Positions 5,487 through 47,427 of a stretch of DNA of 64,000 bases are shown here, piece after piece (the stretch's first letter is position 1; every line of letters begins with the position of its first letter). Position numbers and translations under genes: made by a program. The notes below the pieces were generated by a model, which saw nothing but the letters and a program-made list of their open reading frames with translations, did not search any database and was not told the DNA's origin. Location: assembly GCF_002056295.1 (NCBI RefSeq), contig NZ_CP020100.1:3557501-3621500 (forward strand). Reading direction: 5' to 3'. Origin of the DNA: Halopseudomonas phragmitis (GTDB lineage Bacteria; Pseudomonadota; Gammaproteobacteria; Pseudomonadales; Pseudomonadaceae).

Positions 5487-5566
5487 CGTCATTACCAGCG
5501 GCTTAGCCGTGTGGTGATCCATGCACACTTATGGATGGCCACGCCGCTTCGCGACTCGCCATGACG
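5487..5566. repeat. Degenerate palindromic repeat pair of the CGTCATTGCGAG family
   Basis: Between the NTF2-like gene and hemN, CGTCATTACCAGCGGCTT (from 5487) and GGATGGCCACGCCGCTTC (from 5532) are decayed copies of the palindromic repeat that is abundant at 32.6-35.6 kb. Each still has a short central hairpin (CGGC/GCCG; GCCGC/GCGAC). Here the reverse-oriented copy comes first and the forward copy second, opposite to all intact pairs in the window. Confidence 0.6.
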
Positions 5567-30710: not shown

Positions 30711-31943
30711 TCAGACAAGCAGTTGCTCGAATGGCCAGTAGCGCACCAGATCTCCCTGTTTCAGGGTCCGCTCCGGCTCGATCTCCACCAGCCCTGCGGC
30801 CCAACAGGCTGCGCTGAGCATGGCCGAGCCCTGGTTCTCGTGCAGCACCGCCTGTTGGCCAGTTGCACAGGACTCGTGGCGGCCACGCAGAAACTGACGT
30901 CGTGGCCGGGCCTTGGGCCAGTCAAAACCGGCCGGCAGCAAATACGGCATGGGGTTGTCGGTCAGGCAGCCCTGAGCCTTTAGCAACCAGGGCCGCGCCA
31001 CCATCAATGCGGTAACCAGAACCGCCACCGGGTTCCCCGGCAAACCGATCCACGGCGTCCCGGCCACCTCGCCAAAGGCCAGCGGCTTGCCCGGTTGAAT
31101 CGCCAGCCGCCACAGTTGCAGACTGCCCAGATCCTGCACTGCCAGTTTCAGATGATCTTCTTCACCAACCGAGACGCCACCCGAACTGAGCAGCACGTCA
31201 GCCTGTCCGGCCAGTTCGGCCAGACGGTTGCGGGTGAGCGCCAGATCATCGGCCAGGCATCCACCATCGATCACCTCCATCCCCCAGCCCTGCAACAGAC
31301 TGAGCAATGTATAGCGATTGGCATCGTAGATCTGCCCGCCGGCCACCGGCTGCCCTGGCTCACGCAGCTCATCACCACTGCTCACCAAGGCGACCCGCAG
31401 ACGCCGGTAGACCGGTATCCGGGCCAGCCCATGACTGGCCAGCAGGCCAATGTCCTGAGCCCGCAAGCGCTGCCCTTTGGGCACCAGAAGATCCCCACGG
31501 CGCAATTCTTCAGCCTGACGGCGAACATGCTGACCCGGCGTCAATGCCGGCAGCAAAACCTGCCCACCTTCGACCCGGCACTGCTCCTGCGGCACGACAC
31601 TATCGGCCCCAGGTGGCAATGGTGCACCGGTAAAGATCCGCACTGCTGTCTGCGGCGCCAGAAGATCAGCCTGATCACCTGCCGCCACCCGCCCCAAAAC
31701 CGGCAACCAGCCGCCCGCAGCCGGCAGATCACTGGCCCGCAGCGCGTAACCGTCCATCGCACTATTGTCCCAGGCCGGCACATCCAGCAGCGCGTGCTGA
31801 TCCATGGCCAGCACCCGGCCAAGCGCCTGGTGCAGCTCCACCGGCTCGCTGACCAGCGGGTCCGGCATGAACTCAAGCAGATGGGCCAGTGCCACTTCCA
31901 GCGGCAACAGATGCTGGCTGGTCGTGCAGTCGCATTGGCTCAT
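30711..31943 (-). CDS. moeA: Molybdopterin molybdenumtransferase MoeA
   Basis: A 410-residue MoeA that inserts molybdate into adenylated molybdopterin. Family marks are VPAWDNSAMDGYALRASDLP, IFTGAPLPPGADSVVPQEQ, LVSSGDELREPGQPVAGGQIYDANRYTL, SSGGVSVGEEDHLK and GLPGNPVAVLVTALMVARPWL. The start MSQCDC at 31943 overlaps the stop of moaB by four bases (ATGA) and has GGGAG upstream; a start six codons earlier is possible. It is the second gene of a moaB-moeA unit. Confidence 0.93.
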   Translation of the reverse strand: MSQCDCTTSQHLLPLEVALAHLLEFMPDPLVSEPVELHQALGRVLAMDQHALLDVPAWDNSAMDGYALRASDLPAAGGWLPVLGRVAAGDQADLLAPQTAVRIFTGAPLPPGADSVVPQEQCRVEGGQVLLPALTPGQHVRRQAEELRRGDLLVPKGQRLRAQDIGLLASHGLARIPVYRRLRVALVSSGDELREPGQPVAGGQIYDANRYTLLSLLQGWGMEVIDGGCLADDLALTRNRLAELAGQADVLLSSGGVSVGEEDHLKLAVQDLGSLQLWRLAIQPGKPLAFGEVAGTPWIGLPGNPVAVLVTALMVARPWLLKAQGCLTDNPMPYLLPAGFDWPKARPRRQFLRGRHESCATGQQAVLHENQGSAMLSAACWAAGLVEIEPERTLKQGDLVRYWPFEQLLV

Positions 31944-32491
31944 GACCGACTCCCGCAACATGCCACCTGCTGTTCAATCGGCTTGAGGTGAGGCACGGCG
32001 TTGCACGGTCGGGTCCGACTATCCAGTTGCAGCGCCAGAATCCCATCCCATGCAGTGCGACAGGCACCCGGCGAGCCCGGCAAACAACACACCAGCGTGC
32101 CATTGGCAAAACCGGCCAGCGCCCGGGACTGCACGGTCGAAGTACCAATTTCCTGGAACGACAACTGACGAAACAGCTCGCCAAAGCCATCCATGCTCTT
32201 GTCCAGCAGCGGGCTGATGGCCTGGGGTGTATTGTCCCGCGCAGTAAACCCGGTCCCCCCGGTGATCAGCACCACCTGAACGTCCGGCGCAGCAATCCAC
32301 TGCGACACCTGGGCCCGCAGCAGGTAGATATCGTCGATCACCAACTGCCGGTCAGCCAGCACATGGCCTGCAGCCTGCAAGCGCTCAACCAGAGTGCGAC
32401 CGGAGTCATCGGTTTCCAGAGTACGGGTATCGCTGACCGTCAGCACAGCGATGCGCAAGGGAATAAAAGCCTGAGAAGCCAGGTGGGCCAT
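31940..32491 (-). CDS. moaB: Molybdenum cofactor biosynthesis protein MoaB
   Basis: A 183-residue MoaB/Mog fold protein (molybdopterin adenylyltransferase type). Marks are [45 protein letters not shown] (the TGGTG substrate loop), and [29 protein letters not shown] precedes the ATG. It is translationally coupled to moeA. Upstream, at 32492-32600, a half FNR site (ATCAA on this strand) and NarL-like TACCCCT are seen but are weak. Confidence 0.93.
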
Positions 32492-32620
32492 AAGCCAAAC
32501 CTCCTAGAAAGTCTGGCTTTGAGCATGCAGTTGATCAGCACTGACCGATAGTGCCCTATGGAGGTACATACCCGGAGCATTGGAGGGGTATGGCACTACC
32601 CCCTCACACATCCCCACCCT

Positions 32621-32734
32621 GGATTGCCACGCCGCTGCGCGGCTCGCAATGACAGTTTGGGAGTAACAACCCCAATCGCCACACACCGCCTCCACCTACC
32701 CGTCATTGCGAGGACCTCAGGTCCGTGGCAATCC
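32621..32734. repeat. Palindromic repeat pair upstream of the GIY-YIG gene
   Basis: Two 34-base palindromic copies in opposite orientation: 32621-32654 (forward, inner stem GCCGC/GCGGC) and 32701-32734 (reverse, inner stem GGACC/GGTCC). Both keep the outer stem ATTGC/GCAAT. Starts are 80 bases apart, as in the other pairs. The rest of the 330-base gap from moaB to the GIY-YIG gene holds only the moaB promoter region. Confidence 0.85.
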
Positions 32735-32821
32735 ATAGGCCACCTCATACGCACCCCGGTTGCACCCACCATCAAACCTGCGCAACACTGCCCCTCCCGA
32801 AAGCACCCCAAGGATGGCCGT

Positions 32822-33109
32822 ATGATCAGGGAACCCTGTGTCTACATCATGAGCAACAAACCCAACGGCACACTGTACGTTGGCGTCACCTCCAACCTAC
32901 CTGCCCGCGTCTGGCAGCATCGAACCGGAGCAGTACCCGGCTTCACCTCCCGGTACGGACTCACCAAACTGGTCTGGTATGAAAGACATGAACAAATGGC
33001 AGAAGCCATAAGTCGAGAGAAACAGCTAAAAGCCGGCAACCGCGCAGGAAAAATCCGCCTGATCGAAGAAAGCAACCCACACTGGAACGATTTGTATACG
33101 ACCCTGTAA
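32822..33109 (+). CDS. Small GIY-YIG endonuclease family protein
   Basis: A 95-residue single-domain GIY-YIG protein of the UPF0213/YhbQ type. The core is CVYIMSNKPNGTLYVGVTSNL, where VYI and YVG correspond to the GIY and YIG strands, followed by R38 region LPARVWQHRTG, the second catalytic segment RYGLTKLVWYERH, and the acidic EAISREKQLKAGNRAGKIRLIEE that holds the metal-binding glutamate. No DNA-binding domain is attached. ATG at 32822 has AAGGATGG upstream; a longer open frame includes repeat DNA and is unlikely. It lies antisense inside the moa gene cluster, with palindromic repeats 87 bases upstream and 20 bases downstream. Confidence 0.87.
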   Translation: MIREPCVYIMSNKPNGTLYVGVTSNLPARVWQHRTGAVPGFTSRYGLTKLVWYERHEQMAEAISREKQLKAGNRAGKIRLIEESNPHWNDLYTTL

Positions 33110-33129
33110 GAGTGCGGCAGCGAAACCCT

Positions 33130-33515
33130 GGATTGCCACGCCGCTACGCGGCTCGCAATGACGACCGGGAGTAACAGCCCCAATCACCACACACCGCCCC
33201 CACCAACCCCGTCATTGCGAGGGCCAAAGGCCCGTGGCAATCCAAGCGCCCTCATCAACAACACTCCTGGATTGCCACGCCGCTACACGGCTCGCAATGA
33301 CGGCCGGGAGCAACAAACCCCATCACCGTGCCCACGCCCCACCCCCGTCATTGCGAGGGCCGAAGGCCCGCGGCAATCCAAGCGCCCGCATCAACAACAC
33401 CCCTGGATTGCCACGCCACTACGCGGCTCGCAATGACGGCCGGGAGCAACAGCCCCAATCTCCGTGCCCACTTCCCGCCCTCGTCATTGCGAGGGCCGCA
33501 GGCCCGTGGCAATCC
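33130..33515. repeat. Tandem palindromic repeat array downstream of the GIY-YIG gene (six copies)
   Basis: Six 34-base copies alternate in orientation: forward at 33130, 33269 and 33405 (inner stem GCCGC/GCGGC type) and reverse at 33210, 33346 and 33482 (inner stem GGGCC/GGCCC). The unit repeats every 136-139 bases. The short spacer AAGCGCCC-x-CATCAACAACA is nearly identical in both places. The array fills the space between the GIY-YIG stop and the moaE stop (33541). Confidence 0.9.
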
Positions 33516-33540
33516 ATAGGCGGCTACACAACACCCCACC

Positions 33541-33990
33541 TCAAACCCAGCGCTTCAACGCCGCATCATCGCTCTCACGGGCATCGACCCAGCGTGGGCC
33601 GTCCGCGGTGTCTTCCTTTTTCCAGAATGGGGCCTGGGTCTTGAGGTAGTCGATGATGAAATGACAGGCCTCAAAAGCTGCCTCTCGGTGAGCAGAGCTG
33701 ACGCCAACAAACACGATTGGCTCACCCGGCTCCAGGCGTCCAACCCGGTGCAACACTTCAACGGTCAGCAGCGGCCAGCGCTCACGGGCCAGATCGACAA
33801 TCTTGCCCAGCGCCTTCTCGGTCATCCCCGAATAGTGCTCAAGCAGCATGCCGGCCACTTCCTGGCCGTCATTGAAATCACGCACATAACCAACAAACCC
33901 GACCACCGCACCAACCCCAAGCTGATCGGCATGCAACTGGTTGAGTAACTGGCCAGGATCGAAGCAGGCCGTCTGCACCCGTATCGCCAT
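33541..33990 (-). CDS. moaE: Molybdopterin synthase catalytic subunit MoaE
   Basis: A 149-residue MoaE, which with MoaD converts cyclic pyranopterin to molybdopterin. Marks are VGAVVGFVGYVRDFNDG, LEHYSGMTEKAL, HRVGRLEPGEPIVFVGVSSAHREAAFEACHFIIDYLKTQAPFWKKE, including the active lysines of APFWKKE. It starts one base after the moaD stop, completing moaC-moaD-moaE. Confidence 0.95.
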   Translation of the reverse strand: MAIRVQTACFDPGQLLNQLHADQLGVGAVVGFVGYVRDFNDGQEVAGMLLEHYSGMTEKALGKIVDLARERWPLLTVEVLHRVGRLEPGEPIVFVGVSSAHREAAFEACHFIIDYLKTQAPFWKKEDTADGPRWVDARESDDAALKRWV

Positions 33991-34713: not shown

Positions 34714-34795
34714 CGATGATTCCTGTAACGTCGTCATGCCTCTACTCTACCGCAACCGCCCAGGCCGGGCATTACCTCTAACGAGGGGGTTACCT

Positions 34796-35589
34796 GGATT
34801 GCCACGGACCTACGGCCCTCGCAATGACGGAGTAGAGCCAACGCACCACACTCTACCCTCACCCCAAACCGTCATTGCGAGCCGCACAGCGGCGCGGCAA
34901 TCCAAAAGGCGGCTCTGCACACCCGAACACCTGGATTGCCACGGGCCTGCGGCCCTCGCAATGACGGAGTAGAGCCAACGCACCGTACTCCCCCCACCCC
35001 AAACCGTCATTGCGAGCCGCGAAGCGGCGCGGCAATCCAAGGGACGACTCTGCACACCCGAACACCTGGATTGCCACGGGCCTTCGGCCCTCGCAATGAC
35101 GGAGTAGAGCCAACGCCCCGTACTCCACCCCTCACCCCAAACCGTCATTGCGAGCCGCGCAGCGGCGCGGCAATCCAAGGGATGGCTCTGCACACCCGGG
35201 CACCTGGATTGCCACGGGCCTACGGCCCTCGCAATGACGTAGTAGAACCGACGCCCCCCACTCCACCCCCACCCCAAACCGTCATTGCGAGCCGCACAGC
35301 GGCGCGGCAATCCAAGGGATGGCTCTGCACACCCGGGCACCTGGATTGCCACGGGCCTTCGGCCCTCGCAATGACGTAGTAGAACCGACGCACCGTACTC
35401 ACCCCTCACCCCAAACCGTCATTGCGAGCCGCACAGCGGCGCGGCAATCCAAGGGACGGCTCTGCTCGCCCGGACACCTGGATTGCCACGGGCCTGCGGC
35501 CCTCGCAATGACGGAGTAGAACCGACGCACCGCACTCTACCCCCTCACCCCAAACCGTCATTGCGAGCCGCGAAGCGGCGCGGCAATCC
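34796..35589. repeat. Tandem array of 12 palindromic repeats (about 137-base unit, nearly six units)
   Basis: Six forward copies (34796, 34933, 35068, 35206, 35343, 35480; inner stem GGGCC/GGCCC) alternate strictly with six reverse copies (34870, 35005, 35143, 35280, 35417, 35556; inner stem GCCGC/GCGGC). Each is 34 bases. The period is 135-138 bases. The spacers are conserved too: one begins GGAGTAGA and ends ACCCCAAAC, the other reads AAGGGAYGGCTCTGCACACC. The array fills the gap between the acyl-CoA dehydrogenase stop and moaC. Open frames through it are products of the repetition and not genes. Confidence 0.93.
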
Positions 35590-35612
35590 ATGGCCCACGA
35601 ATGAGCCCCAAC

Positions 35613-45117: not shown

Positions 45118-45131
45118 GCCTGCGCCAGTCT

Positions 45132-45261
45132 GGATTGCCACGTCGCTACGCTCCTCGCAATGACGGTGGGGTACGGCAGGCGGTGCCTCGTCGTCGCCAT
45201 ACCCCGCGCACCCGTCCGCTGCTATCTCGTCATTGCGAGGGCCAACGGCCCGTGGCAATCC
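45132..45261. repeat. Palindromic repeat pair between liuC and liuD
   Basis: A forward copy at 45132-45165 with a divergent inner part (GTCGC-TAC-GCTCC) and a reverse copy at 45228-45261 (inner stem GGGCC/GGCCC). Both keep the ATTGC/GCAAT outer stem. The starts are 96 bases apart, wider than in other pairs. Confidence 0.85.
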
Positions 45262-45298
45262 ATTGGCCCCATACACATCCAGCCAAGGTAACCCCGTC

Positions 45299-47218: not shown

Positions 47219-47234
47219 GTGCCCAGCGCTTTCT

Positions 47235-47343
47235 GGATTGCCACGGGCCTGTGGCCCTCGCAATGACGCAGTGGAACCAATACACCGTGCCCTACCCTCC
47301 ACCCCATACCGTCATTGCGAGCCGCGTAGCGGTGCGGCAATCC
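47235..47343. repeat. Palindromic repeat pair between liuD and liuE
   Basis: A forward copy at 47235-47268 (inner stem GGGCC/GGCCC) and a reverse copy at 47310-47343 (GCCGC/GCGGT), starts 75 bases apart. The spacer between them (GTGGAACCAATACACCGTG and on) resembles the spacers of the 34.8-35.6 kb array, so the pair with its spacer seems to be the unit that spreads. Confidence 0.88.
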
Positions 47344-47427
47344 AGGGTGCGGTTGTGCTGTGCCCCTTCCCTGTGCGCCGCTTATGCGAAACACTAGGAC
47401 TATGAGCATACAACTATCAGGAACCCC

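Follow-up and report, generated by a model that had tools for sequence, protein, structure and literature searches.

A stand-alone GIY-YIG nuclease gene among CGTC-tagged REPs in Halopseudomonas phragmitis, and the covariation of nuclease and repeat type

The window, by which we mean the whole 64-kb stretch of DNA analysed, contains a small gene for a stand-alone GIY-YIG domain, surrounded by palindromic repeats. The gene (32822–33109, plus strand) lies between moaB (31940–32491) and moaE (33541–33990) and is antisense to both, these being on the minus strand. The description in an earlier note, made from the letters alone, of a 95-residue stand-alone GIY-YIG protein antisense in the moa cluster was thus correct; its only Pfam match at E 0.001 is PF01541, with 52 bits. 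The positions given in that note for the repeats also agree with ours. There are two palindromes before the gene, 87 bases away, and six after it, starting at 20 bases and spanning 33129–33516, and the same family is found again at 34.8–35.6, 45.1 and 47.2 kb. The features are the following.

5487–5566 (about), decayed head-to-head REP pair, read by eye
32586–33546, whole insertion, 961 bp, with 21 bp in its place in the relative G139
32620–32653, minus strand, CGTC-tagged REP, which opens the tail-to-tail pair before the gene
32702–32735, plus strand, CGTC-tagged REP, CCA end toward the nuclease gene, 87 bp away
32822–33109, plus strand, GIY-YIG nuclease gene, intact, 95 aa (PF01541, 52 bits)
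33129–33162, minus strand, CGTC-tagged REP, CCA end toward the nuclease gene, 20 bp away
33211–33516, five more REPs in alternating orientation, in units of about 136 bp
34795–35590, REP array of 12 copies, flanked by moaC and by a gene for an acyl-CoA dehydrogenase
45131–45262, REP pair, tags face to face
47234–47344, REP pair, tags face to face

The residues that are invariant in the nuclease are Y8, Y19, R29, H33, E66 and N85, which fit the GIY-YIG active site. In the predicted structure (pLDDT 95.6) residues 71–73 are the turn that joins the E66-bearing helix to the next helix, and residues 70–77 of the window protein read KAGNRAGK. Pfam at E 0.001 gave no HUH/Y1 transposase domain in the 95 residues. 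Foldseek gave no match at E 0.001 or better; the best was 1zg2 (E 3.7e-3) and the next Slx1, a weak likeness which nevertheless suggests the same fold as the UPF0213-type solo GIY-YIG proteins and the Slx1/UvrC domains. A sequence search of the PDB returned weak relatives only, and none of the PADLOC models of known anti-phage defence families matched at E 0.01. The PHROGs search gave weak endonuclease matches, and a phage collection two distant ones, from Staphylococcus phage. The host genome (4.04 Mb, one contig) has three GIY-YIG matches including this gene, the other two being a frame of 324 codons and one of 628 codons, the latter presumably UvrC.

The eight palindromes flanking the gene share the form CGTC-ATTGCGAG...GCAAT-CCA, and the window repeats have the CGTC tag at one end, the CCA tail at the other and a stem opening with complementary A-T pairs. 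In form they match the known CGTC-tagged REPs of Di Nocera, De Gregorio and Rocco (2013, PMC3733652), to judge from the available part of that paper; they are alike in the tag, the AT-starting stem, the CCA tail, the dimers and in having no transposase alongside. According to the same part of the text, CGTC REPs occur in five phyla, are not associated with transposase genes and include dRS3 of Neisseria and RPE-4 and RPE-6 of Rickettsia conorii, and it was left open what, if anything, mobilises them. Head-to-head dimers are predominant there, which is a reported tendency and no strict criterion, whereas neighbouring REPs in the host genome are mostly tail-to-tail (27, as compared to 12 head-to-head and 8 tandem). 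The word GIY-YIG is absent from PMC3733652, and our literature search brought up no paper in which GIY-YIG proteins are connected with CGTC REPs. One candidate, PMC9465073, does contain both "GIY-YIG" and "repetitive extragenic palindrom" in its available part, but in a gene table and a reference, and was set aside.

Genome-wide, the repeat pattern had 97 matches and the reversed pattern none; one match was dropped for overlap, which leaves 96 non-overlapping copies. The window holds 24 of the 96, where its length would lead one to expect 1.5, and it is thus a hot spot of the repeat. The upstream REP pair folds as single-stranded DNA far better than shuffled sequences do (z −6.9). As to the decayed copies that the earlier note placed at 5.5 kb, a head-to-head pair can be read there by eye, but by themselves the two 11-mers match weakly, as may be expected by chance.

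The earlier note had also seen no REP-type tyrosine transposase in the window, and the only Y1 transposase match of the host genome does lie outside it, at C1:1877469 (L314). This is a lone gene with long inverted repeats (86 nt, 91%) that are unrelated to CGTC REPs, and neither GTCATTGC nor ATTGCGAG was found as an exact word on either strand in the 3.2 kb around it. It resembles the TIRYT class as described in the available part of PMC3733652, and the statement that CGTC REPs are not linked to transposase genes holds for the Y1 transposases of this genome.

The cassette looks mobile, since relatives have the site empty and the contexts in which it occurs are scattered. The flanks in the window align with those of G139 apart from the insertion, 961 bp as compared to 21 bp, and the 21 bp between moaB and moaE contain no REP. 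In G066, G128 and G021, moaB also adjoins moaE without a nuclease gene between them. Among 25 moaE loci of the genus the gene was present only in the window's genome (G000) and in G105; 19 of the 25 are otherwise arranged and so are uninformative as to an empty site. Twelve genomes of the family carry a close homologue, and only three pairs of them have a common neighbouring gene within about 1.5 kb, which makes nine contexts in 12 genomes (the contexts were compared over at most 1.5 kb per side, and over less at two contig ends). The arrays differ in size between the two genomes that carry the gene at this place: 12 exact matches beside moaC in G000 as compared to 2 in G105, and 6 as compared to 2 after the nuclease gene. 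The moaC array (34795–35590) has a period of about 137 bp, and may have undergone recent tandem expansion or contraction.

For the comparison of loci, a 12-row alignment was used in one scan of public genomes, which gave at least 576 relatives, and the best 80 loci were kept. The palindrome finder was neutral on the stem sequence and asked for a GTC tag, a 5-bp stem and a CC tail. Within 250 bp of the gene there were 174 palindromes in the best 80 of the at least 576 relatives, that is 4.42/kb; farther out in the same loci the density was 0.39/kb (250–500 bp) and 0.08–0.14/kb (0.5–10 kb). The earlier note had proposed counting palindromes near homologues as a check, and the count favours the pairing. 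One palindrome or more was found within 1 kb in 72 of the 80 loci. With the limit set at 300 bp, 82 of the 92 loci in the discovery set and 89 of the 128 further ones had at least one. Of 20 loci that belong to other GIY-YIG genes only three did, with one match each; the other GIY-YIG genes are thus mostly without CGTC palindromes. The finder gave no CGTC palindrome in 39 of the 128 further loci, many of which have variant flanking palindromes. Both CCA ends would be expected to point toward the gene (+ gene −) in 25% of the loci with repeats on both flanks, and did so in 40 of 61 and in 31 of 62. The layout of the cassette is REP, gene, REP, with the CCA ends most often toward the gene, and it is found in different genomic places.

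The two flanks tend to carry the same repeat type. Among the 128 loci outside the rule-finding set, the upstream and downstream stem words agreed in 49 of 62 two-flank loci, as compared to 10 of 34 when paralogues within a genome were set side by side and 18% when the loci came from different genomes. Four paralogues in G466 have four different, symmetric repeat types, and the paralogues in G188 and in G376 have one type in common. The protein columns most informative on repeat type in the discovery set were 71, 73, 72 and 76. Residue 72 was G or S in all 24 GCGA loci and W or Y in all 143 loci of other types, counted over the 167 usable of 220 loci (the count omits 49 in which no repeat was classified and four that have a gap at position 72), and with three GCGA classes assigned by inspection, L188, L006 and L015, the last two in the discovery step. 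If A is also allowed before GTC, the finder gives GCGA for L188 unaided. Where W72 is paired with a CCCG or a CCGG stem, the combination K71 and N73 went with CCCG in 32 loci and with CCGG in none, the other combinations numbering 20 and 41.

Outside the discovery set, as scored, GCGA was found in four of five G72 loci and in none of 81 W/Y loci. With a slightly wider tag, 144 held-out loci gave a GCGA palindrome within 300 bp in six of seven G/S72 loci and in none of 135 W/Y loci, 93 of which had another palindrome and 42 none at all; the seventh G/S72 locus is a fragment and has no palindrome. The held-out proteins with a readable motif were all below 90% identity to any discovery protein. 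A raw word count was also tried as a repeat classifier and turned out too noisy, as at least two GCGA-type words were present in 18 of the 135 W/Y loci and in six of the seven G/S loci. On the best tree, residue 72 and the repeat type each change eight times, and there are one to two independent pairs on supported branches, which are concordant, and six to eight on all branches. In the loci compared, the stem type of the repeat covaries with residues 71–73 of the nuclease, a covariation that cannot be called significant after phylogeny since the tree is poorly resolved and the power low.

The nuclease and the repeats also occur together across genomes. Repeat-rich was taken as at least 10 copies, a threshold that we chose after the family sample had been seen, and the two patterns used (GCGAG and CCCGC) cover two repeat types only, so that a genome in which another type abounds is classed as not rich. 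A close homologue (at least 56% identity) was present in 12 of 119 genomes of the family. These comprise 8 of 8 repeat-rich genomes (at least 10 copies of either pattern) as compared to 4 of 111 others, and none of the 107 genomes without a close homologue reaches 10 copies. In a sample of the phylum the nuclease was found at E 1e-12 in 116 of 397 genomes, 35 of 44 repeat-rich and 81 of 353 others (Fisher p 2e-13); by pattern, in 22 of 24 GCGAG-rich and 16 of 23 CCCGC-rich genomes, three genomes being in both lists.

The check proposed in the earlier note, whether copy number follows the presence of the nuclease, comes out positive for these proportions, but not for the 9 of 44 repeat-rich genomes in which no nuclease was found at E 1e-12. 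Repeat-rich genomes lacking the gene had been named there as evidence against a partnership, and to this extent they exist. A wider search of the nine gave no match at 0.001 in eight and one weak match in the ninth; they are G363, G389, G402, G412, G480, G507, G176, G192 and G245, with 10–152 copies each of the GCGAG or the CCCGC pattern. All seven genomes with a G/S72 copy were GCGAG-rich, as compared to 14 of 80 other genomes read. In 14 of 21 nuclease-bearing GCGAG-rich genomes (the window's excluded) the loci read had no G/S72 copy, in a survey of matches down to about 1e-15, and because the copy in G455 has an internal stop and that in G437 is a fragment, an intact one was found in 5 of the 21. 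The nine genomes without the gene, and the finding of an intact G/S72 copy in only 5 of the 21, count against the nuclease as an obligatory mover of the repeats.

The closest known enzymes seem to be Ssn, reportedly a family of site-specific single-stranded nucleases in the GIY-YIG superfamily (Nature Communications, 2025). The Neisseria enzyme reportedly acts on dRS3-type repeats and affects natural transformation, and Ssn is said to cleave its site only as single-stranded DNA. Both the lineage of the window nuclease and its gonococcal homologue are most likely Ssn. The gonococcal protein is 57.3% identical over 94% of the query, has the motif KKWNRAWK and lies within a dense array of CGTCATTCCCGCG repeats (dRS3-type), which is what the residue code predicts for K71-W72-N73. 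The window protein is like Ssn in being a small stand-alone GIY-YIG protein with cognate repeats beside its gene and throughout the genome, and differs in the repeat type (GCGAG) and in having A71-G72-N73 instead of K71-W72-N73 at the presumed specificity turn. It is most likely a member of the Ssn family with a different repeat specificity. To call the system uncharacterised, as the earlier note did, was therefore mostly wrong, the repeats being the CGTC REPs of the 2013 paper and the nuclease lineage apparently matching Ssn. We found no paper on such a residue code or pairing in the literature, and the Ssn paper may contain parts of it. Two 2.17-Mb records of Neisseria gonorrhoeae, L308 (NZ_CP119140.1) and NZ_CP119142.1, are filed as plasmids, and are, from their size, probably chromosomes.

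We put the probability at about two in three that the product of the window gene is a GIY-YIG nuclease of the Ssn type, with specific recognition of the CGTC-tagged REPs that flank the gene and are scattered over the genome. The comparisons of loci and genomes support well that it would recognise its own repeats specifically, while cutting of the repeats as single strands is suggested by analogy with Ssn. The idea in the earlier note of the nuclease as a partner for the spread of the repeats stands as far as the pairing goes, through proximity, co-occurrence, cognate types and covariation; a role in the spread itself is what we infer. On this reading the nuclease would cut or nick a repeat when it is single-stranded, in imported DNA or at a replication fork, and through repair of the cut ends the cassette and its gene-less REP dimers would reach new places and the REP arrays would grow or contract.

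The nuclease could instead serve the host as a gatekeeper, which cuts its own repeats in incoming single-stranded DNA and tunes natural transformation, the spread of repeats being incidental. The Ssn report on Neisseria and the gonococcal homologue in a dRS3 array both fit this, but the patchy presence, with nine contexts in 12 genomes of one family, the broken copies, and the fact that one genome may have as many as six copies whose repeat types often differ, look selfish, and we regard such a role as unlikely, if a serious alternative. Rather improbable is that the nuclease is a parasite which homes into pre-existing REPs spread by another process, so that the repeats mark its target and not its own element. 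The moaB-moaE site that is empty in G139 (21 bp) offers no REP to home into, and all eight repeat-rich genomes of the family sample have the nuclease, even though repeat-rich genomes without it exist, most GCGAG-rich genomes are without an intact G/S72 copy, and the repeats usually far outnumber the nuclease genes.

Mobilisation of the REPs in trans by a RAYT-like Y1 transposase, with the GIY-YIG gene as a bystander, is very improbable. The host genome does have one Y1_Tnp gene, but this has long inverted repeats of its own that are unrelated to the REPs, neither GTCATTGC nor ATTGCGAG stands near it as an exact word, the repeat type tracks the nuclease, and CGTC REPs are unassociated with transposase genes in the available part of PMC3733652. 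That a small gene came by chance to lie between genes where repeats abound could be imagined from the 24 of 96 copies that fall in the window, but this hardly survives the roughly 40-fold enrichment in the 80 loci (the best of at least 576), which recurs in further genomes. Judging from the sequences compared, the pairing of nuclease and repeats is not due to chance, and it has strong support from their proximity and co-occurrence, from the cognate repeat types and from residue–repeat covariation.

A wider and quite tentative interpretation is that CGTC REPs and GIY-YIG nucleases constitute one widespread minimal class of mobile elements, the GIY-YIG counterpart of REPtrons. A re-codable turn at 71–73 would read the repeat stem, the gene-less REP dimers would be non-autonomous, and movement would occur by single-strand cleavage and host repair, with no transposase. 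Like the RAYT/REPIN systems (REPtrons; in part PMC3733652), the window system has an enzyme gene flanked by genome-scattered palindromes, cognate types, few genes and many repeats, but the enzyme is GIY-YIG and not HUH/Y1, and the tag CGTC and not GTAG. Since such enzymes have their own matching repeat in many bacteria, they are a likely partner for a repeat family said to lack one. As a mobiliser of CGTC REPs, a nuclease that accompanies them and varies together with their stem type is a concrete candidate, and the code in residues 71–73 could yield re-targetable single-strand cutters.

Broken copies of the nuclease were common among the loci read, as would be expected of decaying elements, and several of the repeat-rich genomes have copies that are split or contain a stop. 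Internal stops were seen in 8 of 144 loci (L147, L165, L189, L217, L230, L238, L241 and L296), and split matches in G247 (L317, L319) and G437 (L283, L323).
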